From: a virus
Reading direction: 5' to 3' (one strand)
DNA length: 45,646 nt
IMG/VR virus record: IMGVR_UViG_3300040960_001618
Span: 1-45,646 of that record
Positions within the stretch are counted from its first letter, which is position 1, and every line of letters begins with the position of its first letter. Of the stretch, positions 4,488 to 32,724 are shown piece by piece. The translations under genes and the position numbers were made by a program. The notes beneath the pieces were generated by a model. The model did not search any database and had not been told where the DNA came from. It saw only the letters and a list, made by a program, of their open reading frames with translations.

Positions 4488-4516
4488 TTGACAAACTAAA
4501 AAAAGTGTTATATACT
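4488..4516 (+). promoter_or_regulatory. Consensus sigma70-type promoter at the head of the accessory cassette
   Basis: TTGACA at 4488-4493 and TATACT at 4511-4516 are separated by exactly 17 nt. The element sits in the 70-nt gap after the structural genes and just before the first gene of the long plus-strand operon. It matches the bacterial housekeeping (sigma70) consensus at 11 of 12 positions, which in T4-like phages usually marks early transcription by unmodified host polymerase. Confidence 0.8.
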
Positions 4517-4545
4517 ATAAGTTAAAGTATAGTAGGAGTATCTCT

Positions 4546-4899
4546 ATGGACGAAAGACTTAAAAAAGCTCTTGATTTTAGCAACTACATGGTTACTTTTA
4601 ATAATCAAAAAAGATTATTAAAAGAAACGTACAATCAAGATCTTTTATATTATCATAATGGCGCTCAATTCACAGTAACTAGAGAATTAATTAATTTTTG
4701 TTACACTCTGTTATCAACAGATAATACTGAAGTTGTTTTAGTTGATGATAACGGAATACCTGTTCAAATTACAGATTTAGATGACTTCCATTCTAATATT
4801 ATAGATGTTTACTTTACAGCATCTAATGAATATTATAACAAATTTATGAATTTAAAAAAGCAAAGATCGGTACCTAATTTAGTTGACGCAAATGAGTAA
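4546..4899 (+). CDS. Hypothetical protein, first gene of the accessory operon
   Basis: 117 residues, not recognised. ATG at 4546 has a TAGGAG ribosome-binding site 7 nt upstream and lies about 30 nt downstream of a consensus sigma70 promoter, so it should be among the first genes of the region transcribed. The sequence is mixed alpha/beta and polar, with a DDNGIPVQITDLDDF stretch near residue 75-90; no signal peptide or catalytic motif is visible. The last 8 nt overlap the next glycosyltransferase gene in an ATGAGTAA junction. It resembles small hypothetical proteins of marine myoviruses in style only. Confidence 0.7.
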   Translation: MDERLKKALDFSNYMVTFNNQKRLLKETYNQDLLYYHNGAQFTVTRELINFCYTLLSTDNTEVVLVDDNGIPVQITDLDDFHSNIIDVYFTASNEYYNKFMNLKKQRSVPNLVDANE

Positions 4900-5740
4900 A
4901 GGTGTATTAGTAATTGCTAGAAACAACAATAACATTGACTATGTAAAACAAGCAGTGTTTCTAGCCAAACGAGTAAAAAAATATCTAAATCTACCTACAT
5001 CAATTATTACAGACAATGTTGCGTATTTAGAAAAAGCGTTTGATAAGAATATTTTTGATAAAATTATAAAAGTTGATTACGAACACAAATCAAACTCAAG
5101 AAACTTTTATGATGGCGGACTTGCATCAAAAACTGACACTTTTAAAAATTCGTCAAGATCGTCTGCATATGATTTATCGCCTTATGACGAAACTCTTTTA
5201 TTAGATAGTGATTTTGTAATCAATAATGATTTGTTTTTAAATTGTTTTGATAGCGATCAAGACTTACTATTGTATAAAAAATCTTACGAACTAAGCGGAA
5301 CAAGAAATCAAAAAGAGTTTGAGTTTATAAGCGATAGTGGATGTGAGTTTTACTGGGCAACCTGTGTATTTTTTAGAAAAACAGACGACAATAAATTGTT
5401 TTTTGATTTAATAAAACATATACAAGAAGAATGGAATCATTATAGAAGAGTATATCAAATACAATCAAACTTATTTAGAAACGACTTTGCTTTTAGTATT
5501 GCATTGCATATTTTAAATGGTTTTAACAAAGGTAGCTTTTGTGGAGAGATGCCTGGTAAATTGCTTTACATTACAGATCAAGACATATTGTGGAATATGA
5601 ACGACGAAAATATGCTGTTTTTAGTTGCTAAAAAAGATTATTTAGGCGAATATTATGCAATTAATACCAAAGATATGAATATGCATGTAATGAATAAGTT
5701 TAGTTTATCTAGAATAATAGATGAGGTAGATTATGAGTAA
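4892..5740 (+). CDS. GT-A-fold glycosyltransferase-like protein
   Basis: 282 residues starting at ATG 4892 (MSKGVLVIARNN). I prefer this over an in-frame TTG 9 nt upstream because ATGAGTAA, in which the upstream stop and this start overlap by 8 nt, recurs at the next gene. The protein begins with a short beta strand, then ITDN, and has YDETLLLDSDFVI near residue 95-108: the DxD-type metal/nucleotide-sugar signature of GT-A enzymes such as GT8-like families. The next gene has the same layout (YDETIVLDTDMLVL), so the two are paralogues. It probably transfers a sugar from a nucleotide donor in the cytoplasm; acceptor and donor are unknown. Confidence 0.7.
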   Translation: MSKGVLVIARNNNNIDYVKQAVFLAKRVKKYLNLPTSIITDNVAYLEKAFDKNIFDKIIKVDYEHKSNSRNFYDGGLASKTDTFKNSSRSSAYDLSPYDETLLLDSDFVINNDLFLNCFDSDQDLLLYKKSYELSGTRNQKEFEFISDSGCEFYWATCVFFRKTDDNKLFFDLIKHIQEEWNHYRRVYQIQSNLFRNDFAFSIALHILNGFNKGSFCGEMPGKLLYITDQDILWNMNDENMLFLVAKKDYLGEYYAINTKDMNMHVMNKFSLSRIIDEVDYE

Positions 5741-6572
5741 AGGATTTTTAGTACTTGCACAAAATTCAAAGTCTGGCAATTATGTAATGCAAGCATGTTT
5801 GTTAGCAATGAGTTTACGAGCTAATAATAATTATAAAATTAGTTTAGTTACTGACAATGATGTTCCTGAGCAATATGTAGATCTTTTTGATAAAGTTATT
5901 CCTATACCATTCGGCGACGATGCAGAAGATAAAGAATGGAAGATAGAAAATAGGTGGAAATTATTCCACGCAACTCCTTATGACGAAACAATAGTTTTAG
6001 ACACTGATATGCTAGTGTTAGAAAACATAGACAATTGGTGGAAATTTTTAAACAATTACAATGTATATTATACTAGTAATGTTTATGATTATAGAGGTAA
6101 TATTGCTGATACATCTTATTATAGAAAAGCGTTTATAGAAAATAATCTTCCAAATCTTTTTTCTGGATTTCATTATTTTAAGAAAAACGATTTTGCAATG
6201 AACTTTTATAAAGAATTAGAAACAGTAGTAAAAGATTATGGTAAATTTTATTCAACTGTTGTAAAAAAATCTACACCTAGTTTTCCTAGTATGGATGTAT
6301 GTGCTGCTATTGCTGCTGTTAATTTAGATTGTGTAGATCAAATAACTAATCCATTTGTAAAAAATCCTACATTTGTACATATGAAGCCATATTGTCAAGG
6401 TTGGGATAATGTTACAAAAAGCTGGTTAGATAAGGTTGGTTGCTATATAAATCCTAACTGCCAAATAAAAATAGGAAACTATTTTCAAACAGGTATATTA
6501 CACTATACTGAAAATGAATTTATAGAAAAAACGCCTGTATTAGAACGTTACAAGGTATTACTAAATGTCTAA
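5733..6572 (+). CDS. GT-A-fold glycosyltransferase-like protein, paralogue of the preceding gene
   Basis: 279 residues; ATG at 5733 overlaps the previous stop by 8 nt (ATGAGTAA). It begins MSKGFLVLAQNSKSGNYVMQA, has SLVTDNDVP near residue 37, and YDETIVLDTDMLVLENID near 85-102 carrying the DTD signature expected for Mn2+/nucleotide-sugar binding in GT-A enzymes. A later PTFVHMKPYCQGW segment could form part of the acceptor side. Length and fold cues match GT8-like cytoplasmic glycosyltransferases. Two such genes in tandem suggest two successive sugar additions or two acceptor types; this is inference. Confidence 0.7.
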   Translation: MSKGFLVLAQNSKSGNYVMQACLLAMSLRANNNYKISLVTDNDVPEQYVDLFDKVIPIPFGDDAEDKEWKIENRWKLFHATPYDETIVLDTDMLVLENIDNWWKFLNNYNVYYTSNVYDYRGNIADTSYYRKAFIENNLPNLFSGFHYFKKNDFAMNFYKELETVVKDYGKFYSTVVKKSTPSFPSMDVCAAIAAVNLDCVDQITNPFVKNPTFVHMKPYCQGWDNVTKSWLDKVGCYINPNCQIKIGNYFQTGILHYTENEFIEKTPVLERYKVLLNV

Positions 6573-7905
6573 TCTAAAAGAATTACTAAAAAGTATAAAA
6601 GTACAACAAGCTGAACAAAACGAAAGCTATGTTTCTTACGATAAAAAAGACCATAAAATTTATAAAATTACAAATCGTCGTCCACTAGAAACAGAATATG
6701 AGGTAGTTGCAGTTTCAACAGACACAGTAAAACCTATTTTAGAAGGTTCTAAAAGTGTTTCTGACTTTACTGTTGTATATGATTTTGCTTCAAAGCAAGT
6801 AGTTGTAAAAGAATTAAATTATGAAGATCATTATAATTCTGCAGGATCTTTTATACACGAATTTACTAGAACTAGTGTATCTAAAGATAGTCACACAAAC
6901 TTTGATAAAATTTATGATGGCGCAATTATCGATATATGGATTAAACAAGATTCGTACCAAAAAAATCAACTTGTATACTATCAAGGAAATATTTACAAAT
7001 TATTAGAAACTAATAAAGAAAATGAAGATTTTAATTTTAATTGTGCTTCATTATTTGTAGAAGATGTAAAACTTACAACAGCGTCTACAACAGATCATAC
7101 AGTATCCTTAGAAGTTAATAAACCTATTTTTGAAGGAGTACATGTAGACGTTTGGTATAAAGAATTAGAGCATGTAACTGGACAACATGTATTCTATAAA
7201 GGAATAATTTATAAATTTATTAAAGACCAAAAAAGTAACACTAACTTTAAAAAAGAAAATTGCAAAGTTATTCTTGAAGATGTAATTTTATACAACGACG
7301 AAAATAAAATACTAAAATTTCAAGATGTTACTAAAATAGGCGAAAAGTTTTTAGACTATAATAAACTGTATATGCGAGATTTACACGAGATTGCACATAA
7401 CAGAGAGTTTGGAGAAATTTTCTTTTATTCAGGAAATAATTTAATTGAAGTTAAAGACGATGAAATTAGTGTAATCAATTTAACAAGCAGTGACATTTAT
7501 TCAGTTGATAAAGATTTTCTAAATATAGAAAATGTAGAAAATTTAAAGAATGGTTCAAAAGTTTTAATAGGTAAAGAATTATACAAGTATAGTATAGACA
7601 AAACATTTGATTTAGTAATTAGACAAAATAATAAATTAAAACGCTGGGAATTTATGTTAAATCCGTATACTAAAAAGTTCTTAAAATTATCTGGTTATTC
7701 TACCGATGACGTAGTATATTTTAGTGTAACAGAAAAATATGATCCAAACATATTATATAAATCTATTACTATAAATGTACAAGAATTAATTAATAATAAA
7801 GAATGTTATGTTCCATTTGATAACAATTGGAATCCTACAGATTGCGAGACAAGTGTTTACACAACAAAATATTTTGAAAATTATGGACATGAGGTAATTG
7901 ACTAA
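6565..7905 (+). CDS. Hypothetical protein with two CBM5/12-like repeats
   Basis: 446 residues, not recognised as a whole. ATG at 6565 overlaps the upstream stop by 8 nt (ATGTCTAA). Two internal repeats resemble the aromatic pattern of small carbohydrate-binding modules (CBM5/12): DIWIKQDSYQKNQLVYYQG (near residue 119-137) and DVWYKELEHVTGQHVFYKG (near 196-214), each followed by an IYK segment and ending FVEDV or ILEDV. There is no signal peptide or transmembrane helix. Placed among glycosyltransferase genes and one gene cluster away from the fibres, it could be a sugar-binding structural or scaffold protein. The stop directly abuts the next ATG. Confidence 0.65.
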   Translation: MSNLKELLKSIKVQQAEQNESYVSYDKKDHKIYKITNRRPLETEYEVVAVSTDTVKPILEGSKSVSDFTVVYDFASKQVVVKELNYEDHYNSAGSFIHEFTRTSVSKDSHTNFDKIYDGAIIDIWIKQDSYQKNQLVYYQGNIYKLLETNKENEDFNFNCASLFVEDVKLTTASTTDHTVSLEVNKPIFEGVHVDVWYKELEHVTGQHVFYKGIIYKFIKDQKSNTNFKKENCKVILEDVILYNDENKILKFQDVTKIGEKFLDYNKLYMRDLHEIAHNREFGEIFFYSGNNLIEVKDDEISVINLTSSDIYSVDKDFLNIENVENLKNGSKVLIGKELYKYSIDKTFDLVIRQNNKLKRWEFMLNPYTKKFLKLSGYSTDDVVYFSVTEKYDPNILYKSITINVQELINNKECYVPFDNNWNPTDCETSVYTTKYFENYGHEVID

Positions 7906-8823
7906 ATGAGTAAGTTTAAGCCGATAGATTATGATATAATATATCTTTCATATGACGAACCAAACGCAGAAAAAAACTATGCAGATCTTTGTAGCAAGGT
8001 TCCTTGGGCAAAACGTGTTCACGGTGTAAAAGGGTCAGATGAAGCACACAAAGCCTGTGCAAGATTAAGCGAGACAGATCGTTTTATTACAATTGACGGC
8101 GACAACATAATAGACGAAAATTTTTTAAATCAAGAAATTGATTTTGATGAACACGAAGATTTAACAAGTTGTGTAATTAGCTGGGCAGGAAAAAATGTAG
8201 TTAATGGATTAATGTACGGTAACGGAGGGATCAAGTGCTGGCCCAAAGACTTTGTACTACGTATGCGCACTCATGAAAATGCAGATCCAAAAAATGCACA
8301 TGCGCAAGTAGATTTTTGCTGGGATGTTAGATACATTCAACAAAATAGTTGTTTTTCGGATGTATATAACAATGCTACTCCGCACCAAGCATGGAGAGCA
8401 GGATTTAGAGAAGGAGTCAAGATGGCTCTCGATCGTGGTGTAAAAGTAACTGTAGAAGAGTTCCACAAAAATCATTGGAAAAATTTACATCGTCTTTACG
8501 TTTGGTTGATGGTAGGTGCTGACGTAGAAAATGGTCTATGGGCTATATACGGTGCTCGTGAAGGATTATGGCGGACTATGTGTACAGATTGGGATTATGT
8601 AAATGTTCGTGATTTTGATTATTTAAATGAACACTGGGATGAGTTAATAGAAACTGTAACAGAAGAAAATTTAGAAAATGAAATAGAACTTTTAGGAGAT
8701 ATACTTATTGAAAAATTAGAAATTCCTATATCTACTATTCCATTAAATGGGTCTCAAAGTAAATTTTTTAAAGCAGTCTATACTAATCCAAATAGATTAG
8801 ATCAAATTATTGATATAGAATAA
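7906..8823 (+). CDS. Glycosyltransferase-like protein (paralogue of the gene at 17888)
   Basis: 305 residues beginning ATG directly after the upstream TAA. The first 120 residues (YDIIYLSYDEPNAEKNY, AKRVHGVKG, ITIDGDN, VNGLMYGNGGIKCWP) align closely with the 224-residue product at 17888 (FISYQEPNADENF, AKRVHGVKG, WVVDADALIV, INDLVYGYGGIK). DGDN/DADA sits where GT-A enzymes carry their DxD, so a nucleotide-sugar transferase is the best guess. A C-terminal extension of ~80 residues is absent from the paralogue. Known family members occur as annotated glycosyltransferases in marine myoviruses as I recall; function is inferred. Confidence 0.65.
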   Translation: MSKFKPIDYDIIYLSYDEPNAEKNYADLCSKVPWAKRVHGVKGSDEAHKACARLSETDRFITIDGDNIIDENFLNQEIDFDEHEDLTSCVISWAGKNVVNGLMYGNGGIKCWPKDFVLRMRTHENADPKNAHAQVDFCWDVRYIQQNSCFSDVYNNATPHQAWRAGFREGVKMALDRGVKVTVEEFHKNHWKNLHRLYVWLMVGADVENGLWAIYGAREGLWRTMCTDWDYVNVRDFDYLNEHWDELIETVTEENLENEIELLGDILIEKLEIPISTIPLNGSQSKFFKAVYTNPNRLDQIIDIE

Positions 8824-8833
8824 AGGAGCACTC

Positions 8834-10237
8834 TTGTCAAAAAGCTCGTATAACTCTAACGCAGAAATTGCAAGAGAAAAGCTTAATAATATAAGTTGTT
8901 CAATGTGTCTTGCTAAGTGGACACAAGTAACAATGCATCTACATAATGGACATACGCATAGCTGTCATCATCCTGCTCCACATTTTGTTCCTTTAGATGA
9001 GCTAAAAAGAAATCCTCACGCATTGCATAATTCAATTTACAAAATTAAACAACGCAAAAAAATGTTAGCAGGTGAACAGCCGGAAGAGTGCAATTACTGT
9101 TGGAATATTGAAAACTTAAACCAAGGTCATCTAAGTGATAGACATTACAAGAGCGGCGAAGATTGGAATGAAGGCCAATTAGAAAAAATACAACTTAATC
9201 CTTTAGATGAAAAGTTTTTGCCTACATATGTAGAAGTTAGTTTTAATAATACTTGCAATTTTGCTTGCATGTATTGTAGCCCCCAAATCTCTAGTAAATG
9301 GATGGAAGACGTTAAACAGTGTGGAGGTTACGATATAGGAGACTACGAAGTACATAATTTAGATTACATGAAATCTAAAAATCTTATACCTATACTTGCA
9401 AGGGAAGAGAATCCTTACATTGATGCATTTTGGAAAATTTGGCCTGAGCTTTATACAAACTTAAAAGTATTTCGTATTACAGGTGGCGAACCGCTGTTAA
9501 GTAAACATACTTGGCGTATATTAGAATACATACAAGAAAATCCTAATCCTAATCTTGTCTTAGGCATTAATACTAATCTTGGAGTACAAGATGTGTTTAT
9601 AGATAGACTTATAGAAATTGCAAATGATCTAATACTTAATAATAAAATTAAAAATTTTGATTTATATACAAGTGTTGAAAGTTTTGGTGAACAAGCAGAA
9701 TACATACGTGACGGAATGGAGTTTGATAGATTTTTAGTTAATCTGAATAGAGTTACAACAGAAATACCTATGTTAGATTGGAAAGCTAAAACAATCATTA
9801 TGGCAACATACAATCTATTAAGTATTCCAAATTTTAGAAAATTGTTAGAATGGCTTTTAGAATGGAGAAAGATAAATGGTTCTAATACTTGGAAAAAACT
9901 TTGGTTAGATATTAGTTATCTAACTTATCCTGATTGGCAAACAGTTGCACTTGCAGGTGAAAATGAATTACGTATTATGGAAGAAGATTTAACATTTATG
10001 TTATCTAATAAGGAACAATTAATTGGGCACTACGGCTTCCAAGATACAGAAATTGAAAAAATGCGACGAGCAATTGATTTTGTTAAATCTAATTTAGATA
10101 AAGATAAGTCGAGAGAAATGAAACAGTTTTATAAATTTTTTAGTGCATATGATTTTAGAAGACAAAAAGATTTTTTAAGTACATTCCCTAATTTTACAAA
10201 ATTCTATTATCAGTGCAAGGAGTTAGCAGATGGATAA
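8834..10237 (+). CDS. N-twitch-type radical SAM protein (copy 1)
   Basis: 467 residues. The start is TTG at 8834, preceded by AAAGGAG; no ATG lies nearby in frame. The N-terminal ~105 residues hold an auxiliary Fe-S (twitch/SPASM-like) domain: CSMC, SCHH, a stretch ALHNSIYKIKQRKKML and ECNYCW. The radical SAM core follows with CNFACMYC (Cys141, 145, 148) that binds the [4Fe-4S] cluster cleaving S-adenosylmethionine, and TGGEP at ~216-220 for SAM binding. This matches the class of twitch-domain-containing radical SAM proteins with the auxiliary domain N-terminal. Substrate unknown. Paralogue at 12766. Its downstream partner at 10230 is also duplicated (14196), so the two-gene set seems to be the functional unit. 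Confidence 0.88.
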   Translation: MSKSSYNSNAEIAREKLNNISCSMCLAKWTQVTMHLHNGHTHSCHHPAPHFVPLDELKRNPHALHNSIYKIKQRKKMLAGEQPEECNYCWNIENLNQGHLSDRHYKSGEDWNEGQLEKIQLNPLDEKFLPTYVEVSFNNTCNFACMYCSPQISSKWMEDVKQCGGYDIGDYEVHNLDYMKSKNLIPILAREENPYIDAFWKIWPELYTNLKVFRITGGEPLLSKHTWRILEYIQENPNPNLVLGINTNLGVQDVFIDRLIEIANDLILNNKIKNFDLYTSVESFGEQAEYIRDGMEFDRFLVNLNRVTTEIPMLDWKAKTIIMATYNLLSIPNFRKLLEWLLEWRKINGSNTWKKLWLDISYLTYPDWQTVALAGENELRIMEEDLTFMLSNKEQLIGHYGFQDTEIEKMRRAIDFVKSNLDKDKSREMKQFYKFFSAYDFRRQKDFLSTFPNFTKFYYQCKELADG

Positions 10238-11495
10238 AGTTTTAGTTTGGGCAAGACAAGATTTAACAGAAGCTAAATGGAAAAGAACTGATTTTAATGA
10301 ACCATTATATTGGTTTCATAGTGGACTTAAAAAAGAACATCTTGAAGGATTTCATGCACATGTTGATCCTTACATTTCATTAGGAGCAACAAGATTTCCT
10401 GCAACAAGTGTGTATCAACCAGTAACTAGTTTAAAGCAAGTTAAAAATAAAAAATATTATTATCCTGTGCCATTTCAGCCTCATCCAAATTTAGCAAAAA
10501 CTTGGAAAGAAATTGCATATATTGAACCTGAGCATTTAAAAAAAATTAAAAAAGGAATGTGTAAAATTTTAATTCTTAATGTAATGGAAGGTTGGAGTTT
10601 CAATACACATTTTAAAAATATAATCGATGTCTTTATTGAAAAATATAATTTAAATTATCATAATTTTGTTATTTGTAGTGGAAATATGTTAACACCTGAC
10701 TTTAATACTAAATCAGTTTATTATAATTGGTGGGAACAACATATGCGTAATGACAGAGCACTTTTTGACTATGCATCTATGTATCGAGTATTACAACCGT
10801 ATGAACGTAATAGAAAACATAAATTTATTTGTTTAAATAGGCGCCCCCACGCCCATAGATTATTGTTGTCAGAATTTTTATATACAAATAACTATCATAA
10901 TGATGGTATATTAACTTGTTGTAAAGAAACTGATAATGGCAATACTATTTATTACGAAACATCTTTAAAGAGTTGTCAAGAGTATTATCCAAATATATGG
11001 AAAAATTTTAACGTAGATTTTTTAGATAAATTGCCTTTAGTATATAAAGATGGAATAAATGCGGCAGATGATAATCCTACTGTAGATACCAAACCTGACA
11101 AATTTTACAATAGTTGGTTACATATTGTTACTGAAACATATGCTCACAACGGACAAAGTTTTTTTAGTGAAAAAATATTTAAACCTATAATTTATTGGCA
11201 ACCTTTTATTTTACTCGGTGCTTATAATGATTTAAAAAATTTTAGAAGTTTAGGATATAAAACTTTTGATGGGATAATAGATGAAAGTTACGATGATGTT
11301 TTTGATAATGCAGAACGATTACAAACTGTATTTAAAGAAATAAGTAGGATTATTTCTATGGATAATACTGAATTAAAAAAGTTATATAGTGATTGTCATG
11401 AAATTTTAACACATAATTTTTATCATTGGATGTATAGACAAAATAATATACATGCTGATCTTAGGAAAGATCTGTTGGAGGCACTATATGGCTAG
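10230..11495 (+). CDS. Putative glycosyltransferase-like protein paired with radical SAM protein (copy 1)
   Basis: 421 residues; ATG at 10230 overlaps the upstream stop by 8 nt (ATGGATAA). The C-terminal third carries SEKIFKPIIYWQPFILLG followed by a LRxLG-type turn and GIIDESYDD, shared with the product at 14196 (LTEKIMNAMLNYKPVIMLG, FDESYDT). The EKI....YKP.I.LG pattern resembles the donor-binding end of exostosin/GT10-like glycosyltransferases (EK...PL....P...G). KHKFICLNRRPHAHR near residue 205 is another conserved-looking segment. No signal peptide. Catalysis is unproven. Order after a twitch radical SAM gene is kept in both copies. Confidence 0.6.
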   Translation: MDKVLVWARQDLTEAKWKRTDFNEPLYWFHSGLKKEHLEGFHAHVDPYISLGATRFPATSVYQPVTSLKQVKNKKYYYPVPFQPHPNLAKTWKEIAYIEPEHLKKIKKGMCKILILNVMEGWSFNTHFKNIIDVFIEKYNLNYHNFVICSGNMLTPDFNTKSVYYNWWEQHMRNDRALFDYASMYRVLQPYERNRKHKFICLNRRPHAHRLLLSEFLYTNNYHNDGILTCCKETDNGNTIYYETSLKSCQEYYPNIWKNFNVDFLDKLPLVYKDGINAADDNPTVDTKPDKFYNSWLHIVTETYAHNGQSFFSEKIFKPIIYWQPFILLGAYNDLKNFRSLGYKTFDGIIDESYDDVFDNAERLQTVFKEISRIISMDNTELKKLYSDCHEILTHNFYHWMYRQNNIHADLRKDLLEALYG

Positions 11496-12126: not shown

Positions 12127-12133
12127 CAATTAA

Positions 12134-16640: not shown

Positions 16641-16654
16641 TATACGTATATTAT
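16637..16654. repeat. 18-nt perfect palindrome at the dehydrogenase promoter
   Basis: The sequence ATAATATACGTATATTAT is identical to its own reverse complement, centred on ACGT (16644-16647). It starts inside the candidate late promoter and ends within the sequence just before the ribosome-binding site. It could be an operator for a dimeric regulator or simply an AT-rich coincidence. Confidence 0.7.
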
Positions 16655-16665
16655 AGGAGTAAGAA

Positions 16666-22969: not shown

Positions 22970-23246
22970 TTTAAAAGTTTATACACAAACAGAAAGTGCA
23001 GAGGTATGGGCTAATGACTTAGTTAAAGCAGATGCTGTTAATTTTGAAGGTTGGGATTGCGGCATAGGACTAGAAAGTTTAGAAATTACAGCAGACGGAA
23101 CATTGTATAGAGGTACTTGCAAAGTTGGAGGTCCAATCGGACACGTTGATGACGAAGTATGGAACTTGCCAAAAGAGTTTATTACTTGTACAGTATCTAA
23201 ATGTACTTGCGTAGCTGATTTAAAAAGTACACGAAAAAAGAAATGA
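22959..23246 (+). CDS. Stand-alone Cys-rich auxiliary-domain protein of radical SAM partner
   Basis: 95 residues; ATG at 22959 overlaps the radical SAM gene by 11 nt, so translation is probably coupled. The sequence shows GWDCGIGLESLEITADG, GTCKVGGPIGHVDDE, LPKEFITC and CTCVAD, which aligns with the N-terminal domain of the 21354 product and less closely with that of 19226. Four to five conserved cysteines suggest an extra Fe-S cluster or a zinc site, as SPASM-type domains have. It ends in a basic KSTRKKK tail. Predicted to work with the 22292 radical SAM core. Confidence 0.78.
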   Translation: MRPDLKVYTQTESAEVWANDLVKADAVNFEGWDCGIGLESLEITADGTLYRGTCKVGGPIGHVDDEVWNLPKEFITCTVSKCTCVADLKSTRKKK

Positions 23247-25811: not shown

Positions 25812-26701
25812 GATTTCAAATAGTATTTTTAAATAGTGACCTAGATGAGTATGCATTAAATTATAAAGTATACAATACACCCATTGCGGTTAAATGGTAT
25901 AATGCACTATGCGAACAAGTATTAGAAAAAGATAAAACAGCTAAAGAACCTGATAGACTTTATAATTTTCCAAATGATGTATGGAACGAAGAAAAAATAG
26001 TAAGTGAACTAAACAAGTGTATTGATATTATTAATACAGAAAAAACAGTTATTAAACATGATGCATTTGTAGGCATGCCTCAAGAACAGCTAAATCATTT
26101 ACATCATTATTTTGAAAAACTTAGAGGAGAATCTGGTAATCCTGCAGAGTACTATGTAAATGCTAACGATAAACAGAAATTAGCACTAGAGAGGTATAAT
26201 GTTATTATACATAGGGCAGAGAATTTTTACGGCGGGCATAGAATATCTACAGGATATTTTCCTAGAATAGTTGTAACATTTAATAAACGGAAAAAGAAAC
26301 TTTTAGATGACAATGATTTTAAACATTTTACGTTGCATCGTAAATTTGGAGAAGTTTATATTAATTATTGTGAAGTAGGAAAACCGTTATACGATGTGTA
26401 CAAAGACGAAGATGATATTGTAGGAGAAGATAATATACGTCCGTTAAAATGGTATAGTCCAGACTTTACAGCATACTTCCATGATAGACCTGTCGAAAGT
26501 GTAGAAAAGTTTTTACAAGGTATGGATGCATGGTGGGATCAAAACAATAATTATTTAACTGCACTAGGTTTTACAAAAGGAGATCCTAAAAACGCAATAG
26601 GAAATATACCTGTAGCAATGATAGAAACAAATAAAACAGCAGAAGAAATAGTAATAAAATTATGCGAGTATAACACAATAGATAGGGTAGAACTAATATG
26701 A
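25808..26701 (+). CDS. Unknown protein paired with PP-loop ATPase (copy 2)
   Basis: 297 residues, not recognised; ATGA overlaps upstream and downstream. It shares the segment order of the 23243 product: a helical N-terminal half with QLNHLHHYFEKL (against DLHYIYEQL), VIIHRAENFYGG, a beta segment VYINYCEVGKPLYDVYKDED, YSPDFTAYF, and IGNIPVAMIET. WYSPDFTAYFHDRP and WDQNNNYL have several His/Asp that could bind metal, but this is not a known motif. Its retained pairing with a PP-loop gene suggests a two-subunit enzyme. Confidence 0.65.
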   Translation: MRFQIVFLNSDLDEYALNYKVYNTPIAVKWYNALCEQVLEKDKTAKEPDRLYNFPNDVWNEEKIVSELNKCIDIINTEKTVIKHDAFVGMPQEQLNHLHHYFEKLRGESGNPAEYYVNANDKQKLALERYNVIIHRAENFYGGHRISTGYFPRIVVTFNKRKKKLLDDNDFKHFTLHRKFGEVYINYCEVGKPLYDVYKDEDDIVGEDNIRPLKWYSPDFTAYFHDRPVESVEKFLQGMDAWWDQNNNYLTALGFTKGDPKNAIGNIPVAMIETNKTAEEIVIKLCEYNTIDRVELI

Positions 26702-27435
26702 ATGGATTATTTTATTTTAACGACAACTGGAAGCGGATAGGTGTAAAATTATCTGGTGGCGCAGATAGTACAATAATGTATTATGCAATATGTAATTACT
26801 ATAAAGATAGAGATGATGTAGAAATATATCCAATGACTCTAGATACAAAATTCAAACCTTGGTACAGCAAAGGTGCTAAACGTATTATAAAAAAAGTAAC
26901 AGAGCTGACAGGTAAAGCACCTGCAAAGCATATAGTAAAATACTCAAAAAAACATCGCAATAGACAAACAGTTCAATATTATATTACAGAACAACGTGAA
27001 TTAATAAGAGAAAGCCAAACACTTTATAATTTTGATGCAATTTATAATGGATTAACTAGTAATCCTCTTGAAGAAAATATACTAAATGCTGTAAAAGAAT
27101 ATTACGCAGATAATGCAGAAACATATGAAATTGCAAAGAGTCACATTGTAAAAAGAGATTTTGATAGAGATATAGGAAAAAACAAGTATGGACAAAATAT
27201 AATAGACGCAAAACATTTTATTAATATAAGACCGTTTGTACACGGTGACAAAAAACTTATATATGATGCATATAAATATTATGACAGATTAGACGATCTA
27301 TACCCGTTGTCTTACAGTTGCGAAACTAGATGGCAAGAACACAAAACTAAAACTCTGTCTGAACATGCATGGGAACATTGTGGATATTGTTTTTTTTGTG
27401 CTGAACGTATATATGCATTTGGAAAATTAAAATGA
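26698..27435 (+). CDS. PP-loop ATPase with QueC-like C-terminal Cys cluster (copy 2)
   Basis: 245 residues; ATGA overlap upstream and downstream. GVKLSGGADSTIMYY carries the PP-loop (Ser19-Ser24), and the end reads SCETRWQEH...HCGYCFFCAERIYAFGKLK, the same SC...HCGxCxxC..R..AFG cluster as copy 1. A longer middle (about 30 residues more than copy 1) includes a Lys/Arg-rich helical stretch. The PP-loop family adenylates its substrate with ATP, releasing pyrophosphate. The two copies are clearly paralogous but diverged, so they probably handle different substrates or successive steps. Confidence 0.72.
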   Translation: MNGLFYFNDNWKRIGVKLSGGADSTIMYYAICNYYKDRDDVEIYPMTLDTKFKPWYSKGAKRIIKKVTELTGKAPAKHIVKYSKKHRNRQTVQYYITEQRELIRESQTLYNFDAIYNGLTSNPLEENILNAVKEYYADNAETYEIAKSHIVKRDFDRDIGKNKYGQNIIDAKHFINIRPFVHGDKKLIYDAYKYYDRLDDLYPLSYSCETRWQEHKTKTLSEHAWEHCGYCFFCAERIYAFGKLK

Positions 27436-28001
27436 ATTTTAAAGCATTAGAGCTTCCTTATTACGATGTAAAAAGTGTATTAGATAATATGCTTAAAGAT
27501 AAAATTGTGCATTGGACAGATTTAAATCAAATTTGTATCAACACTGTAGCAGGCGAAGAAGATAATTTTTTATATGGCGCAGGAAGTTTGTTTTATGATT
27601 GGTCTAACGGTAAAGAAGTTTATGACGAAAAAGGTCACATGCGCCATGTACCAGCAGAAAGAGAAACACCGTTAAAAGAAGCAGATTTTACAGTTTTGTG
27701 TACTGTGTTTAAAAATACTGTGTTTGAAGATCTTTATAATGTACTAAAAGAAAATTATAATGTAGGCAGAGTGCGGCTAATGAAAAGTCCTCCTAAAACT
27801 TGTTTAAGTTGGCATGTAGATGACACTAAACGCATACACTATCCTATAGTTACGCAAGAAGGCTGTTTTATGTTAATAGAAGATGAAGTAAAACATTTGC
27901 CTCAGCACACTTGGTGGTTAACTAATACATTAGTAAAGCACACAGCACTAAACGCAAGTTTAGAAGATCGTGTACACCTTGTAGCCACATTGCTCGATTA
28001 A
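27432..28001 (+). CDS. Aspartyl/asparaginyl beta-hydroxylase-like 2OG-Fe(II) oxygenase
   Basis: 189 residues. CLSWHVDDTKRIHYPI supplies the HxD iron ligands and VKHTALNASLEDRVHLV the distal His and 2-oxoglutarate-binding Arg, in the arrangement of the Asp/Asn beta-hydroxylase cupin family. These enzymes hydroxylate a C-H bond using O2, Fe(II) and 2-oxoglutarate. It is the first of a run of such genes in this part of the operon and overlaps the PP-loop gene by 4 nt. The substrate could be the product made upstream; unproven. Confidence 0.72.
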   Translation: MNFKALELPYYDVKSVLDNMLKDKIVHWTDLNQICINTVAGEEDNFLYGAGSLFYDWSNGKEVYDEKGHMRHVPAERETPLKEADFTVLCTVFKNTVFEDLYNVLKENYNVGRVRLMKSPPKTCLSWHVDDTKRIHYPIVTQEGCFMLIEDEVKHLPQHTWWLTNTLVKHTALNASLEDRVHLVATLLD

Positions 28002-28014
28002 AAAATACCTTATC

Positions 28015-28022
28015 TATAAATA
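28015..28022 (+). promoter_or_regulatory. Candidate T4-type late promoter (TATAAATA)
   Basis: An exact TATAAATA lies in the 32-nt gap between the genes ending at 28001 and starting at 28034. It equals the T4 late promoter consensus. Transcription from it would start only a few bases before the ATG at 28034, giving a nearly leaderless message for the first gene and normal leaders for the genes downstream. Confidence 0.6.
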
Positions 28023-28033
28023 TTTCTATAATT

Positions 28034-28474
28034 ATGACTTTTGAGACCTTTAAAACCCAATTTCTAGAATGGGTACAAGACAAAATAGAACCCACTAGAG
28101 GAAATGGATATCCTATATGTCCATTTGCACGTAAAGCACGATTGCAAGACCGTATACAGTTTATAAATGCTCCTAGAGGTATATACGGAGAGTTTTTAGA
28201 ATTTGATGAAGAAAACTACGATATAGGTATTGCATGGTTAGGAGAGTTTACTTCTGGAATAGAAGATGAGTTAGAGGATTTAAGAAAACTGAACCCACAT
28301 TTACTATACTTTTTAAGTACACCACAAAGTGGTCATTTTGTTAAAAATTTTACAAACTGTGTTCTAATACAAAAAAAAGACGATATCGAAATAAAAAGAC
28401 AAGTACTTTTAGATACAACGTATTATGATGACTGGCCTAAAGATTATTATAAAGAAATTATGAACAATGAGTAA
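28034..28474 (+). CDS. Hypothetical protein
   Basis: 146 residues, not recognised. ATG at 28034 has no clear ribosome-binding site, which fits the very short leader predicted from the TATAAATA box at 28015. The protein has PTRGNGYPICPFARKARLQD near residue 20-39, an acidic middle (GIEDELEDLRKLNPH) and a Tyr/Asp/Lys-rich end. No membrane segment or known catalytic motif is apparent. It overlaps the next oxygenase gene by 8 nt (ATGAGTAA), so it probably belongs with the 2OG oxygenase/amidinotransferase set. Confidence 0.65.
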   Translation: MTFETFKTQFLEWVQDKIEPTRGNGYPICPFARKARLQDRIQFINAPRGIYGEFLEFDEENYDIGIAWLGEFTSGIEDELEDLRKLNPHLLYFLSTPQSGHFVKNFTNCVLIQKKDDIEIKRQVLLDTTYYDDWPKDYYKEIMNNE

Positions 28475-29096
28475 TGTACAGCAACTTTTTAGTATACCTG
28501 TTTATAAAAAGAATTTACAAGGTATAGATGTGTCAAGTTTTAGATCACGGGTACTTGAACTATTAAACATTGATAGTTACGGCGATCATATAAGTGTTGT
28601 AGGTATGAACGATGCTAGTACTATAAACACATATGGTATAGAACGTCACATGCAAAATTGGGAAGAAACTAATCAGCTAGTTAACGCTATTAATCCTTGT
28701 ATTGCAGAGTATTGGAAAGAGCTAAATTATCATCCTAATATTAAACCTTATATACAAGAAATGTGGGCTACCATTAGTAGAAAAGATGGTTATGTTCCTA
28801 GTCATTTTCATGGACCAACACCTATTACAGCAGTTTACTATCTTGATAAAACAGAAGGTTCGGGAGACTTAATTATACAGCATCCTTTAGAAGCACTATT
28901 AGGATCACAACCTATTAATTTTCCTTTTGATGAATTTGAACAAAGAATGAAAATACAGCAAGGAGACTTGATAATGTTTCCTGGCTATATACGACACAAA
29001 ACAGAGCGCAATGTATCAGACGATATTAGAATAAGCATAGGAATGAATGTAGCCTCTCGCGGAGAATATGTTGCATCACAGTGGAACCAGGTATGA
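28467..29096 (+). CDS. 2OG-Fe(II) oxygenase (Oxy_5-type fold)
   Basis: 209 residues. LFSIPVYKKNL at the start, SHFHGPTPITAVYYLDK in the centre and LIMFPGYIRHKTERN followed by RISIGMNV near the end match the putative 2OG-Fe(II) oxygenase family often encoded by marine T4-like phages (H.H....S.VYYL, FP....H.V.P, RiSi.fN). The iron ligands would be His of SHFH plus the distal His; the Arg binds 2-oxoglutarate. The start overlaps the upstream stop by 8 nt. Confidence 0.82.
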   Translation: MSNVQQLFSIPVYKKNLQGIDVSSFRSRVLELLNIDSYGDHISVVGMNDASTINTYGIERHMQNWEETNQLVNAINPCIAEYWKELNYHPNIKPYIQEMWATISRKDGYVPSHFHGPTPITAVYYLDKTEGSGDLIIQHPLEALLGSQPINFPFDEFEQRMKIQQGDLIMFPGYIRHKTERNVSDDIRISIGMNVASRGEYVASQWNQV

Positions 29097-30115
29097 TTTG
29101 GACAGAATGGGATAAACTAAAAGAAGTTATAGTAGGATCTACATACGATTTAGATTCGTTAAATCAATTTAACGATAACGAATTTGTAGATGGCATGGGC
29201 AAAATATTAGAAGAGACTGAACAAGACTTTTCTAAACTTGCAGGAATATTTGAACAACATGGTGTGAAAGTACATAGACCTAGGAAACTTCCTTTACTAA
29301 AAGAAAATACAAGAACATGGAATTCTAAGTTTCCTTATCCTGCTATATGTCCTAGAGATTTTCATGTAGTATACGGAAATACTATTCTCGGAACTATTGG
29401 CGGAGATTGTAATAGGTATACTGAAAGTGATTACTTTCTAGATATAATGCTTGAAAAATTTAAAGAAGGGCGTAACTATATAAGTATGCCTAAACCGTTA
29501 CTACAAAGCGACTACAAAGAGTATGAACAACTAGAAGGCCAGATTCTATGGCATGCAGCAAACATTATTAAATGCGGCGACACGCTGTTACACACACAAC
29601 CTTATGCGCCTGGACAGCACGGCAGGGGAACACAAGCAGGACTAGACTGGATTAAGCGCAATATTGGTTACGATGTTAAATGGGCAGAAATACCAAGAAC
29701 AGGACATGCAGATGGTAAGATTGCTCTTATTAAGCCAGGATTATTGTTTTGCTGGGATCCTAGTGCAATACCAGAAGAATTAAAAAGTTGGGATTACATT
29801 AAACTAGAGCGTAAGCCACTACCTGATTATTTTAATGATATTAAAATTCAACACTTTTATAAAGATAAAGTTACAAATTGGTTAGATCATTGGATTGGTT
29901 ATGTTGATGAAACTGTGTTTGATATTAACGTAGTAAGTATAGATGCTAACACTGTGATAACTAACGGCTACGATTCTGAAGTAGAACGTAAACTTAAAAA
30001 ACACGGTGTCGATATGATCCCATTTGATTTTAGACATAAGTACTTTTGGGATAGCGGTTTACATTGTGTAACACTAGACCTTACTAGAGAAGGCGAAAGA
30101 GAGTCTTATGTATAA
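29093..30115 (+). CDS. Amidinotransferase (glycine/inosamine amidinotransferase family)
   Basis: 340 residues from ATG 29093, which overlaps the upstream stop by 4 nt; an in-frame GTG at 29081 is possible but less likely. Conserved blocks: CPRDFHVVYGN (R-D motif), GGDCNRY, PRTGHADGKIALI (GHxDG with the catalytic His), and SGLHCVTLDL at the end with the nucleophilic Cys. This matches enzymes that move an amidino group from arginine to an amine, through a Cys-amidino intermediate. Phage homologues occur in marine myoviruses as I recall. Next to oxygenases and PLP-type genes it may install a guanidino group in a small metabolite or sugar. Confidence 0.85.
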   Translation: MIWTEWDKLKEVIVGSTYDLDSLNQFNDNEFVDGMGKILEETEQDFSKLAGIFEQHGVKVHRPRKLPLLKENTRTWNSKFPYPAICPRDFHVVYGNTILGTIGGDCNRYTESDYFLDIMLEKFKEGRNYISMPKPLLQSDYKEYEQLEGQILWHAANIIKCGDTLLHTQPYAPGQHGRGTQAGLDWIKRNIGYDVKWAEIPRTGHADGKIALIKPGLLFCWDPSAIPEELKSWDYIKLERKPLPDYFNDIKIQHFYKDKVTNWLDHWIGYVDETVFDINVVSIDANTVITNGYDSEVERKLKKHGVDMIPFDFRHKYFWDSGLHCVTLDLTREGERESYV

Positions 30116-30827
30116 CATTGTAATGAATACACCTGAAGCACTCGTCGTAGATGATTTCTTACCTCAAGATGTTTGGGATAAAATTTGGAATCAAGTACAA
30201 GTAGACAAATGGAGTCAAACAGGGGCTGACGATAAATTTTGGCACTATACTGATGGCGCAAATTACAAGAACAATAAACGTTGGTTAACCAAAGGTCCTT
30301 TTAATGATAACAGTGATTTATGGTTTAAACACTTTACAAAATTTCTTGATACATGTCCTGAAGCACAACCTTTCGCTAAAGATTATATAGAAATTGCAAT
30401 GCGGTGTCATGCATATCCTGTAGGTAGTAAAAATCCATGGCATAATGATTTAGGATTTACTACCTACACATATTATTTGCATAGGCATTGGCAAATAAAT
30501 TGGGATAGCACACTTTTAATATTGCCATTAGGTAGTATAGATTATCAACAAGTTTTACCTTTAGAAGATGGTACTGTTCATCATGATTGTTATACAGATA
30601 CTAATAGTCCTATGGAAATGTTTCAACAAGGAAAAAAATATCAGCCTATAATTGATTACGGTCTAGGTACATTTGTTTCTCCTAAACCTAATAGATTAAT
30701 TTTAATCAATAAAAAAGTTGTACACGGTATTACAGCAGTAGATAAAGATGCAGGCGAAAATATTCGTGTTACTCTTACAGGAATGATAATGGAGAGTGAT
30801 TGGAGAGAAACAAATGATCTATTTTAA
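30108..30827 (+). CDS. 2OG-Fe(II) oxygenase (prolyl-4-hydroxylase-like)
   Basis: 239 residues; ATG at 30108 overlaps the amidinotransferase stop by 8 nt. EALVVDDFLPQDVWDKIW is the usual opening of prolyl-hydroxylase-like phage oxygenases. NPWHNDLGFTTYTYYLHR has the HxD iron-binding pair, and VVHGITAVDKDAGENIRVTL the distal His and Arg. The insert WDSTLLILPLGSIDYQQVL is longer than typical. Predicted to hydroxylate a protein, base or small molecule; none can be named. Confidence 0.8.
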   Translation: MYNIVMNTPEALVVDDFLPQDVWDKIWNQVQVDKWSQTGADDKFWHYTDGANYKNNKRWLTKGPFNDNSDLWFKHFTKFLDTCPEAQPFAKDYIEIAMRCHAYPVGSKNPWHNDLGFTTYTYYLHRHWQINWDSTLLILPLGSIDYQQVLPLEDGTVHHDCYTDTNSPMEMFQQGKKYQPIIDYGLGTFVSPKPNRLILINKKVVHGITAVDKDAGENIRVTLTGMIMESDWRETNDLF

Positions 30828-31374
30828 AGAATTTCCTGAATTACAATGTACTTTAGAATTTGGACAAAAATATTTGTTAGATAATCTGCCTGATCCTTTT
30901 CATTCAAATGAACCACAAGTTGATAATATACTTGCTGCTAACAAAGGTTGGTTTAATATTGGCCCTTATGGTATACAGATGCATTATTGCGATAAAGATG
31001 ATTCAAGATGGGAATATTTTAAACCTATTACAGATAAACTAGCAATAGAACCTAAATATGCTGCTTTTATAAAAAGCGATGCAGGTATAGGACCAATACA
31101 TGTTGATATTGCTGAACGTGTAGGAGCACTCAATTTTCCTGTTTATGGAGAATGGGAAAAGAGTTATGTTAAATTTTGGGATAGCGAAGAAGGCAATTAT
31201 GAAGTGTGCGAACGTTGGTATCCTAGTACAACTTGCGGCGGTCTTTTTAGGGCAACAGCGTGGCATCAAGTTATAAATGAAAATCCTGGGTCTAGGATTG
31301 TAATGAGCTTTCATTGGGATGAAAGTTATAGCTTTGAATATCTATGTGATAATTTATTAAGGAAGGATTTATAA
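30814..31374 (+). CDS. Aspartyl/asparaginyl beta-hydroxylase-like 2OG oxygenase
   Basis: 186 residues from ATG 30814, which is preceded by GGAGAG; a GTG 18 nt upstream is in frame but lacks as good a site. It overlaps the upstream gene by 14 nt. GPIHVDIAERVGALNFPV supplies HxD and TAWHQVINENPGSRIVMSFHW the distal His and Arg. The order and spacing fit the Asp/Asn-beta-hydroxylase group and resemble the products at 27432 and 32724. The stop shares a base with the next start. Confidence 0.72.
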   Translation: MIYFKEFPELQCTLEFGQKYLLDNLPDPFHSNEPQVDNILAANKGWFNIGPYGIQMHYCDKDDSRWEYFKPITDKLAIEPKYAAFIKSDAGIGPIHVDIAERVGALNFPVYGEWEKSYVKFWDSEEGNYEVCERWYPSTTCGGLFRATAWHQVINENPGSRIVMSFHWDESYSFEYLCDNLLRKDL

Positions 31375-32213
31375 TGAGAATCAAATCGATTACAGATGTA
31401 ATAGTACCGTTTAGACCGCCTGAAATTCATAATGATATTATGAATTTTCCTATGCAAAAGTATTTTTATTTTGATCAAGATTGGGACGTAAGTAAACGTT
31501 TTGAAGCTATAGATGACTTCTACAACACGTTTGAATCCTGGGTTGGCATCAAACTACCAAACTTTGGAAAGTACGCTGTAAACGGTAGTACAGAAGCTAT
31601 AACACAGTGTTTAATAGCTTTATCGCATACAAATAAGAAACTTGCAATGGTTGAAAACGAATATCGTTGGTATCCTTTTATTGCAAGCAAGCATGGTATT
31701 GACATTGTATGGGTTAAAGATATTAATGATTTAACTGACGATTGCGTATTTGTAACTAGTTTGCCTTTTTGTAGAGATGGCAAAATACACGAGTTACAAC
31801 ATCAATTATTAGAAAAGTGTCATCAGGAAGAAATTGAATGCTGGCTAGATTGTGCATACTATGGTGCTAGTAAGCCTGTTGAATTTAAAATACCTAAAAG
31901 CGTAACTAATATATTTTTTAGTTTTTCTAAAAACTTTGGATTAGCTCTTAATCGTCTAGGTTTATGGTATGCCAAAGATTATATTATTGACAAAGGACTT
32001 TTAAATGATGTTGCATATTTGCCTGTTGGAAACATGGCATTAGCAGCAATGCTTATGAAAAAGTATCCTAACGATTATTTGTGGAATAATTATAGAGATG
32101 TACAATTACAATGTACAAATAATCCTACAGATTTAATTTTTATGAGTGCAAATGGAGAGTGTCTTAGTGGTAAGATGACTGAGGTTGTAAAGGAAAAATA
32201 TCAAGATTTGTAA
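31374..32213 (+). CDS. Short fold-type-I PLP aminotransferase-like protein
   Basis: 279 residues. YAVNGSTEAITQCLIAL matches the PLP phosphate-binding helix start (NGSTEA), ECWLDCAYYGA holds the Asp that contacts the pyridine nitrogen (D.AYYG), and FFSFSKNFGLALNRLGLWY carries the SxSK..(G)..RxG motif with the PLP lysine of class I/II aminotransferases. At 279 residues it is ~100 short of typical enzymes, lacking most of the C-terminal domain, though the frame is intact. It is the last gene of the plus-strand operon and runs 50 nt into the convergent minus-strand gene. Probable role: transamination or decarboxylation of an amino acid or keto compound made by the cluster. Confidence 0.75.
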   Translation: MRIKSITDVIVPFRPPEIHNDIMNFPMQKYFYFDQDWDVSKRFEAIDDFYNTFESWVGIKLPNFGKYAVNGSTEAITQCLIALSHTNKKLAMVENEYRWYPFIASKHGIDIVWVKDINDLTDDCVFVTSLPFCRDGKIHELQHQLLEKCHQEEIECWLDCAYYGASKPVEFKIPKSVTNIFFSFSKNFGLALNRLGLWYAKDYIIDKGLLNDVAYLPVGNMALAAMLMKKYPNDYLWNNYRDVQLQCTNNPTDLIFMSANGECLSGKMTEVVKEKYQDL

Positions 32214-32724
32214 ATTTAGTCCATGCTATGTTTTGCCAACACGGACTATTTTTACTTGTATCATTACAAACTAAAAATCTATCAGTTTCGTAATGCCAAG
32301 GTTCGTCTAAAAAATTAGTTGCATCCTTTGCAAATCTTTTACAAAATCTATAAGTATTAAATTCTCTGCTTATAAATGCAAAATCAAATTTATCTCTAGC
32401 AAATTCTATTTGACTTTTTAGCATAGTGAGAGTTGTTTCTGGTATACCAACTGCTGTTCCTTTTTCTCGCCATGTTGGAGTAACCATCAATCTATTTAAA
32501 ACTCTACAACCATTATTAAACATATTGCGTGTAATAACAGTACTAGCTTCGAAAGGTTGATCATACTTATAAATTATACTTACAAATAAATGATCGTCTT
32601 TATAAAAATTTTCTTTAGTATAATTTGAATTTAATTTATCCTTGTACATTCTTTCCAGTATGTATTCTACATCTGGTTTTATTTTGTAATACTCGTTTAT
32701 TGGATAATTTTTGTATGTGTACAT
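32164..32724 (-). CDS. GNAT-like acetyltransferase
   Basis: 186 residues on the minus strand, convergent with and overlapping the plus-strand operon end by 50 nt. LFVSIIYKYDQPFEASTVITRN followed by RVLNRLMVTPTWREKGTAVG resembles beta4 and the acetyl-CoA-binding motif A of GNAT enzymes (R.yV.P..R..G.G), though the final Gly pair is poor. FAFISREFNTYRFCKRFAKD matches the later N....R...K.GF segment. It would acetylate an amine from acetyl-CoA. The assignment is moderate because the pyrophosphate loop is weak. Confidence 0.55.
   Translation of the reverse strand: MYTYKNYPINEYYKIKPDVEYILERMYKDKLNSNYTKENFYKDDHLFVSIIYKYDQPFEASTVITRNMFNNGCRVLNRLMVTPTWREKGTAVGIPETTLTMLKSQIEFARDKFDFAFISREFNTYRFCKRFAKDATNFLDEPWHYETDRFLVCNDTSKNSPCWQNIAWTKFTNLDIFPLQPQSSYH
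32217..32253 (+). terminator. Likely intrinsic terminator of the long plus-strand operon
   Basis: Just after the TAA at 32211-32213, TAGTCC (32217-32222) pairs with GGACTA (32243-32248), with an inner TGTT/AACA pairing, and the hairpin is followed by TTTTT (32249-32253). It lies inside the 3' part of the convergent minus-strand gene. This has the form of a factor-independent terminator for plus-strand transcription. Confidence 0.6.

Follow-up and report, generated by a model that had tools for sequence, protein, structure and literature searches.

Two published gene clusters of T4-like phages come close to the one described here. In pelagimyophages, the host recognition cluster (HRC) is bordered by VrlC and gp14 (PMC7029224). 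It is hypervariable and holds tail fibres, glycosyltransferases, a UDP-glucose dehydrogenase and exchangeable cassettes of radical S-adenosylmethionine (SAM) genes (PMC7029224). The Campylobacter phages CP220 and CPt10 carry five radical-SAM genes with an amidinotransferase (AT), exchanged wholesale between relatives (PMC2853527). Radical-SAM cassettes in phage fibre regions are hence already in print, without a tested function in the parts of these papers available to us. Here we analyse a cluster in IMG/VR record IMGVR_UViG_3300040960_001618, a linear virus record of 45,646 bases that we refer to as the window. Its + strand holds 33 open reading frames (ORFs; g01–g33), mostly overlapping by a few bases, between 4546 and 32213, and convergent genes (r01–r21) follow g33; an earlier note on this DNA had put the number at about 30 mostly overlapping same-strand genes. 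Like the pelagimyophage HRC, the cluster is a variable island beside tail-fibre genes of a T4-like phage and combines glycosyltransferases and radical-SAM genes with a UDP-sugar dehydrogenase (UGDH). It differs in that the capsids nearest to that of relative G028 belong to jumbo phages (PA5oct, Phosso, Vibrio 2.275.O), and in a protein family that we call X, a pair of PP-loop proteins and an AT, none of which we met in the available part of the HRC description. With the CP220/CPt10 module it shares at least five radical-SAM genes (seven here), an AT (g30) and nearby tail genes in a T4-like phage. The Campylobacter ATs are 26–28% identical to g30, however, and that module has 10–12 genes; in the CP220/CPt10 relatives F379 and WX1, alignment to the window is confined to the AT and some of the radical-SAM proteins (25–34%), and a profile search of these two phages gave no X at E ≤ 0.1.

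Diamino-uronic acid pathways of the Wbp/Wlb type combine a dehydrogenase, a DegT aminotransferase, a left-handed beta-helix (LbH) acyltransferase and a PP-loop enzyme. The window likewise brings a dehydrogenase, DegT, LbH and PP-loop enzyme together; unlike these pathways, it has no recognised 3-dehydrogenase or epimerase, its g23 is QueC-like and the radical-SAM enzymes are additional. A further likeness is to radical-SAM systems for ribosomally synthesized and post-translationally modified peptides (RiPPs), such as the His-Xaa-Ser type: a locus of rhizobial phages, described below, also pairs a radical SAM with a repeat-tailed protein, whereas no such substrate was found in the window. The earlier note had considered the combination of genes undescribed. 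Kindred clusters are in fact published (PMC7029224, PMC2853527), and the statement holds for the exact combination, which does not occur in the parts of those papers available to us. In the literature searched, itself limited to partly available texts and, for jumbo-phage papers with one or two mentions of radical SAM, to listings, we did not meet the X family and its links, the duplicated X/PP-loop pair, a core with a bacterial counterpart, the pair of an AT and a 2-oxoglutarate (2OG) oxygenase, or the clusters with CHxS-repeat tails.

The region occupies a variable site that follows the tail-fibre genes in a jumbo T4-like phage. The window itself has no capsid gene; G028, which shares both cluster flanks with it, encodes a T4-type gp23 that is 72% identical to that of Vibrio phage 2.275.O, 70.7% to that of Sinorhizobium phage Phosso and 68.5% to that of PA5oct. 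Among the matches listed, the 14 best for this capsid are from jumbo phages of other hosts (68–72%), and we place the window among the jumbo T4-like phages on this basis. A pelagimyophage origin, considered first, was not supported by the capsid comparison. The downstream flank of the cluster holds ATPase and exonuclease homologues.

The earlier note had proposed looking for the same gene order in related phages, and this order is present. We compared best BLAST labels (above 45 bits, on the dominant strand, with adjacent repeats counted once) in eight relatives chosen for having X or an AT, with the near-identical G001–G003 and the redundant G013 left out. Matched genes kept the window order in all eight, the longest chains comprising 26 of 28, 17 of 18, 11 of 11, 14 of 14, 9 of 9, 12 of 13, 8 of 10 and 6 of 8 genes (p ≤ 5e-5 against shuffles in six relatives, 8e-4 in one and 0.022 in one). 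The front, consisting of g02, g03, the protein at the g04 position and g05, was in order in all seven relatives that reach it (G020 does not), and the core g15–g16–radical SAM–X was intact in five of the eight (G004, G020, G024, G025 and G028). Where X is present in relatives, it is 25–68% identical. The more remote phage G012, with an X that is 25% identical (profile E 7.8e-17), has the order g02–g03–g04-like–g05–NTwi–NTwi–...–radical SAM–X–SGNH-like–radical SAM–radical SAM, in which NTwi is an N-twitch radical SAM and the g04-like and SGNH-like labels are readings of the sequence. The lack of a conserved neighbourhood and the random turnover that the earlier note had named as speaking against a joint pathway are thus not seen in the front and middle of the cluster; they are seen in part in the tail of AT, 2OG and pyridoxal phosphate (PLP) genes, which forms a block in three lineages only. 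Rather than a single fixed pathway of 30 genes, the cluster is a patchwork of modules that share a site: a conserved front (g02–g05) and core (g15–g16–radical SAM–X, often with a PP-loop gene) are joined to exchangeable modules, namely the nucleotide-sugar genes g12–g14 and a guanidino/hydroxylation tail, g27–g33.

The AT tail is the least conserved part of the cluster and turns over. L008/L010 and L009 keep g27–g33 and have in addition an ATP-grasp ligase and another AT, both absent from the window; these lie between g29 and g30 in L008 (7783–10004) and between g27 and g28 in L009 (6664–8924). The ATP-grasp protein was named by Pfam, and a PDB profile search with it gave no match. Across the 38 virus loci in which we found an AT, g31 follows it in 30; of the misses, L020, L035, L039 and L042 have sequence that stops at the AT or inside it, and L026, L027, L028 and L034 have no g31. 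Most of the 30 loci have no other matching window gene nearby. One such AT+2OG pair (L021, 10001–11801) has no radical-SAM neighbours and stands before what we read as terminase-like and DNA-binding-like genes, as a self-contained two-step module.

X is represented in the window by g22 (X1) and g25 (X2) and was found in 16 virus loci, several of them near-identical. It lies at most 720 bp from a radical-SAM gene in seven of eight long virus records (Fisher p 3.9e-4, counting the one exception, G027, and assuming uniform placement and independence; the comparison excluded records close to the window, G013 and short contigs). The cultured Agrobacterium phage Atu_ph07 (490 kb) carries a smaller form of the cluster; its X has a profile E of 0.006, and all four of its radical-SAM matches are within 6 kb of X. 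The X of Phosso escaped the profile and was recognised by its position, its length and a visual resemblance to the Atu_ph07 protein. X also occurs in bacteria: 13 of 143 Bdellovibrionia-class genomes have it, in 15 places. We mapped the contexts of 14 distinct loci, leaving out G114, and in six of them a radical SAM of these families lies in the fetched stretch. A contig of a Bdellovibrionaceae metagenome-assembled genome (MAG) has the order GT2–GT2–rSAM–X–AsnB-like–...–g05–g15–g16–NTwi, in which the radical SAM (rSAM) beside X is of the g24 type; by our reading, this cluster is flanked by sucCD-like and ndk-like genes. A 3.1-kb contig in a Halobacteroidaceae MAG (L169) has the same end of X as virus contig L062 and is probably a mis-binned phage piece.

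An AlphaFold2 model of X2 built from ten relatives reached a predicted local distance difference test (pLDDT) score of 86.9; it replaced a first, five-row model that was unusable (pLDDT 39.7). Structure comparison of X2 by VIA placed a mitoribosomal chain at the top (Z 11.7, root-mean-square deviation (rmsd) 3.0, 138 aligned), and cyclophilins made up most of the top 50 (Z 10.1–11.1, rmsd 3.2–3.5), the best-named one having Z 11.1 (rmsd 3.3, 136 aligned). A Foldseek search of X2 against solved structures gave no match at E ≤ 0.001. X is predicted to be a cyclophilin-like barrel with a helical insert, and this insert carries His, Glu and Asn residues that are conserved in the ten aligned rows, though the two rhizobial X proteins do not evidently share them. 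The X fold is matched at E ≤ 0.001 by ten uncharacterised phage proteins; one of these, of 300 amino acids, is from Atu_ph07 and may or may not be its X.

The proposal that we put forward, and which we hold at about even strength, is that the cluster encodes a cytosolic pathway decorating a phage adhesin or a surface glycan. The chemistry is probably cytosolic because no g01–g33 protein has a strongly hydrophobic segment (no 19-residue Kyte–Doolittle window above 1.38). Host RNA polymerase would make the cluster enzymes early in infection. UGDH, DegT and LbH proteins would produce an amino-uronic-type nucleotide sugar, and radical-SAM enzymes, with X as binding partner, would modify this sugar or its carrier. 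PP-loop enzymes could amidate or adenylate a carboxylate on the sugar or carrier, the AT and 2OG oxygenases could add guanidino and hydroxyl groups, and transferases would link the product to a surface structure; the effect would be changed receptor binding or protection from competitors. As acceptor, the phage adhesins (fibA, fibB, g04) are slightly likelier than a host surface glycan. The fibre locus and the parallel with CHxS-tailed proteins favour the adhesins; a separate sigma70-type promoter, the bacterial counterpart and the published pelagimyophage reading favour the host glycan.

Several observations weigh against a single decorating pathway of this kind. The core is broken in three of the eight relatives (G005, G012 and G029/30): a profile search found no X in G005, g15 and g16 were not seen in the G012 stretch, and in G029/30 the core is rearranged with X on the other strand. 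X stands without a nearby radical SAM in G027, and eight of the 14 bacterial X loci (L171, L189–L192, L195, L197 and L198) show no member of these radical-SAM families within the sequence retrieved. Conserved order and X proximity are partly due to shared phage ancestry. Of the five named jumbo relatives, Vibrio phage 2.275.O, PA5oct and XaC1 gave no radical-SAM match. Since an AT+2OG pair is also present in L021, remote from any cluster of this type, the pair may have no part in the pathway. Of the glycosyltransferase labels, only those of g02 and g03 are supported, and most are unverified; no substrate with a CHxS or HxS repeat tail was found in the window; and an early-type promoter suits a host-directed role at least equally well.

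Such a host-directed role is the next possibility, and it overlaps with our proposal. The cluster would then only remodel the host surface glycan, altering the O-chain or capsule of the infected cell and so blocking co-infection, an effect put forward for the pelagimyophage HRC as well; we regard this as possible but rather less than probable. In pelagimyophages, a fibre-linked island with glycosyltransferases and radical-SAM cassettes was read as O-chain modification, in the part of the paper available to us (PMC7029224). The cluster has its own sigma70-type promoter, and the MAG counterpart includes two GT2 genes. The lack of any strongly hydrophobic protein among g01–g33 speaks against host-glycan remodelling, as do the general library scans, in which no flippase or initiating-transferase family appeared; host lipid carriers could serve instead.

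RiPP-like modification of a phage protein by radical-SAM enzymes, in which X would present or chaperone the substrate and the sugar genes would decorate it afterwards, is an unlikely account of the window. Atu_ph07 and Phosso have matching clusters that combine an X protein, radical-SAM genes and a CHxS protein. These clusters come after a giant structural gene, a 198/199-amino-acid protein and a fibre-like gene; the 198/199-amino-acid protein is 49–57% identical to the pre-fibre protein of L067, L071 and L081. Judged by these neighbours in the sequence, the rhizobial clusters are at the same genome position as the window-type cluster. Their 296/306-amino-acid proteins end in CHSSCHASCHNSRSRR or CHTSCHASCHSSRSRR, of the form (CHxS)3-RSRR, which suggests RiPP-like tails. 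The fold predicted for X, which resembles cyclophilins, would suit a presenter of protein substrates.

A scan of IMG/VR for (CHxS)3-R gave 45 matches, 37 of them in frame (26 clusters at 90% identity; Atu_ph07 is included and Phosso is additional). All in-frame ORFs but one end in (CHxS)3-R-x-R-R at the stop (36/37), the other, L141, running off its stretch. A radical-SAM-motif ORF lies directly upstream in 28 of the 37. Five of the remaining nine had fewer than 800 upstream bases, L127, L141 and L166 had room for such an ORF and none was there, and in L136 either the second of two tandem precursors was scored or an overlap hid the neighbour, since a radical SAM precedes the first. L142 and L136 share the order fibre-like gene, cupin-like gene, radical SAM and CHxS protein (a tandem pair in L136), and L142 has further radical-SAM genes and oxygenase-like proteins. 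Three radical-SAM proteins of the L142 cluster matched no NCBIfam maturase model at cut-off; one of the three matched the general SPASM domain at cut-off. These clusters have the look of a system, sited at the fibre locus, in which phage radical-SAM enzymes act on peptide tails, and a literature search with four CHxS strings returned no paper containing them. Examples of the loci are L142:1773–11560, L136:10357–14779, L122:15998–23647 and L123:15272–23015.

Against carrying this RiPP-like scheme over to the window, the compared relatives have CHxS proteins in the two rhizobial phages only, the radical-SAM proteins of the two cluster types match weakly (best E 6e-4), and X did not turn up in the remaining CHxS stretches retrieved, several short ones among them. 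The one short candidate in the window, a 31-codon Cys-rich frame, was taken as spurious; a precursor without CHxS or HxS repeats would escape the repeat search. The window has no CHxS protein, and the CHxS clusters therefore inform its function and do not settle it. A broader and quite tentative idea, which we think more probably wrong than right by a wide measure, is that jumbo T4-like phages keep a dedicated post-fibre locus in which radical-SAM enzymes and X put unusual post-translational or glycan chemistry on receptor-binding proteins, the window and the (CHxS)3-tail clusters being two forms of one strategy. If true, phage adhesins would be extended past the set of 20 amino acids. Modification of phage proteins by radical chemistry is suggested by the parallel case of the (CHxS)3-tail proteins, and with a conserved core and an X family traced to cultured phages and Bdellovibrionia, the use of this chemistry by phages becomes testable.

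It is improbable that the cluster makes a diffusible guanidino-type small molecule acting inside or outside the infected cell. Sets of AT, ATP-grasp and PLP or oxygenase genes resemble antimetabolite clusters, and the window has an AT, a PLP protein and oxygenases, to which relatives add the second AT and the ATP-grasp ligase; no exporter or self-resistance gene was recognised in general library scans, however, and the AT tail is what relatives keep least. Equally improbable is loose hitch-hiking, in which a hot spot gathers unrelated auxiliary genes without a joint pathway: high tail turnover, many paralogues and X genes without radical-SAM neighbours would fit it, but gene order is kept across relatives in which X, where present, is 25–68% identical, and the same core families recur on a bacterial MAG contig.

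The cluster proposed here as a decorating pathway begins with a sigma70-type promoter, TTGACA-17-TATACT (4488–4516, + strand), which matches at 11 of 12 positions upstream of g01. It is one of two 11/12 matches among 82 promoter-like strings between 3000 and 17000, a number not above that in shuffles (76.2, standard deviation 9.1). Matches of 11/12 or 10/12 with spacing 17 precede g01 in four of six relatives (L069, L071, L078 and L085) and in the near-identical contig L067. In L081 the best match before g01 reaches 9/12 only, and in L091 it lies inside the preceding gene, with TTGACA just upstream of a probably misplaced start. Since such strings are overall no commoner than in shuffles, recurrence before g01 is better promoter evidence than the motif alone, and it upholds the promoter that the earlier note had placed at the cluster start. 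T4 late-promoter strings (TATAAATA, CTAAATA) were not above chance. At the other end, between the convergent transcripts, a hairpin with a T-run (32210–32255) folds better than shuffles (RNA fold z −3.6), in keeping with the terminator noted earlier; a terminator scan did not call it, though, and it lies in the 3′ end of the convergent gene r01. A search at the DNA level with 4488–29000 against named phages gave no match, nor did tblastn with X2, g16 and g05.

The genes preceding the cluster, fibA and fibB (262–4475; all genes from here to g33 are on the + strand), encode large proteins called fibre-like from their position and mutual similarity (54% over 131 amino acids). fibA has no PHROG match and fibB a weak DUF4214 match, and neither matches a fibre model; tail-fibre PHROGs do match the genes preceding fibA and fibB in L067. 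They are followed by g01 (4546–4899), a small conserved protein with a weak match to phrog_31673, and by g02 and g03 (4883–6572), which are GT8-like glycosyltransferases (profile to glycogenin E 1.5e-6, profile positions 10–109). The variable g04 (6565–7905) has conserved ends and may be an adhesin or structural protein; relatives have proteins of 188–450 amino acids there, and scans of Pfam/PHROG-type libraries gave no family match for g04. Two paralogous pairs are glycosyltransferase-like by motif only: g05 (7906–8823; 39% to a Bdellovibrionaceae protein) with g15 (17888–18562; core family, 34% to g05), and g07 (10230–11495) with g11 (14196–15452; 33% over 129 amino acids). Of the glycosyltransferases named earlier, only g02 and g03 are supported; the two pairs had no PDB match. 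The core protein g16 (18546–19229; 43% to a Bdellovibrionaceae protein) is a possible methyltransferase, for which the best Pfam E, 0.079, is that of the bacterial homologue, leaving that earlier label weak. Searching the PDB with profiles of g05/g15, g16 and g07/g11 returned no usable match.

All seven radical-SAM proteins that had been counted carry CxxxCxxC, with Pfam or NCBIfam support. g06 (8834–10237; 307.9 bits) and g10 (12766–14211; 333 bits) pass the cut-off of 170 for the N-twitch family NF033640, of which, to our knowledge, no function is known; g18 falls just short (164.7 bits). g17, g18, g19 and g20 (19226–22969) match PF04055 (E 5e-13, 3e-19, 6e-12 and 5e-15), as does g24 (24693–25811; E 2e-7), which has a Cys-rich C-terminus and a bacterial homologue with a weak SPASM match (E 0.035). 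g20 is 32% identical to g19 over 212 amino acids, and g21 (22959–23246), a Cys-rich domain, is 33% identical to g19 over 67; together, g20 and g21 (22292–23246) seem to encode in two genes what g19 has in one, a Cys-rich domain plus radical SAM. In L009 (4982–6091) we read a similar Cys domain at the C-terminus instead.

The two PP-loop proteins were likewise borne out. g23 (24064–24714) is QueC-like, with a C-terminal CGxC (PF06508, E 8e-6), and g26 (26698–27435) was recognised by 32% identity to g23 and by SGGADS and CGYC motifs; a PDB profile search with the PP-loop profile gave weak hits only. Because each PP-loop gene follows an X member, X1 (g22, 23243–24067) before g23 and X2 (g25, 25808–26701) before g26, the X/PP-loop pair is duplicated around g24. 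Among the nucleotide-sugar genes, the predicted acyltransferase and dehydrogenase are g12 (15442–16044; LbH, PF00132 E 1.2e-17) and g14 (16666–17895; UGDH, PF00984/PF03721). Between them, g13 (16044–16640) is a DegT-type PLP protein shortened to 198 amino acids (PF01041 E 1e-13). The second proposed PLP protein, g33 (31374–32213), is of fold I and CobD/HisC-like, with a match below the model cut-off (TIGR01140 E 2e-7). The AT, g30 (29081–30115), matches HsvA (E 5e-52), StrB, SxtG and AGAT in the PDB by profile, and its catalytic-type residues, RD, HxDG and HC, do not vary among nine sequences that range from the window to Campylobacter phages, which establishes it as an L-arginine amidinotransferase. 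Two of the four supposed 2OG oxygenases are supported by Pfam, namely the Asp/Arg hydroxylase-like g27 (PF05118 E 2.8e-8) and g29 (2OG-FeII_Oxy_5, PF13759 E 4e-15), which with the unlabelled g28 occupy 27432–29096. The other two, g31 and g32 (30108–31374), were called by reading of motifs and have no Pfam match, and the sole library match of g31 is to a PHROG named DNA endonuclease V (E 2.8e-12). An SGNH/GDSL hydrolase-like pair, g08 and g09 (11452–12781), shares 34% identity (PF00657 on g09, E 4.5e-7).

On the − strand, r01–r06 (32164–36104) form a convergent oxidative gene set. We read r01 as GNAT-like; r02 is an Asp/Arg hydroxylase (PF05118), r03 is weakly ferritin-like (E 0.01), r04 is SGNH-like (35% to g09), and r05 and r06 are tandem fatty-acid desaturases (40% to each other, PF00487 on r05). 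Elsewhere among these phages, Vibrio phage 2.275.O has other genes at its ATPase region, and of the 17 radical-SAM matches in virus contig G013 (342,607 bases), 12 fall into two clusters, at 96–106 kb and 138–147 kb.

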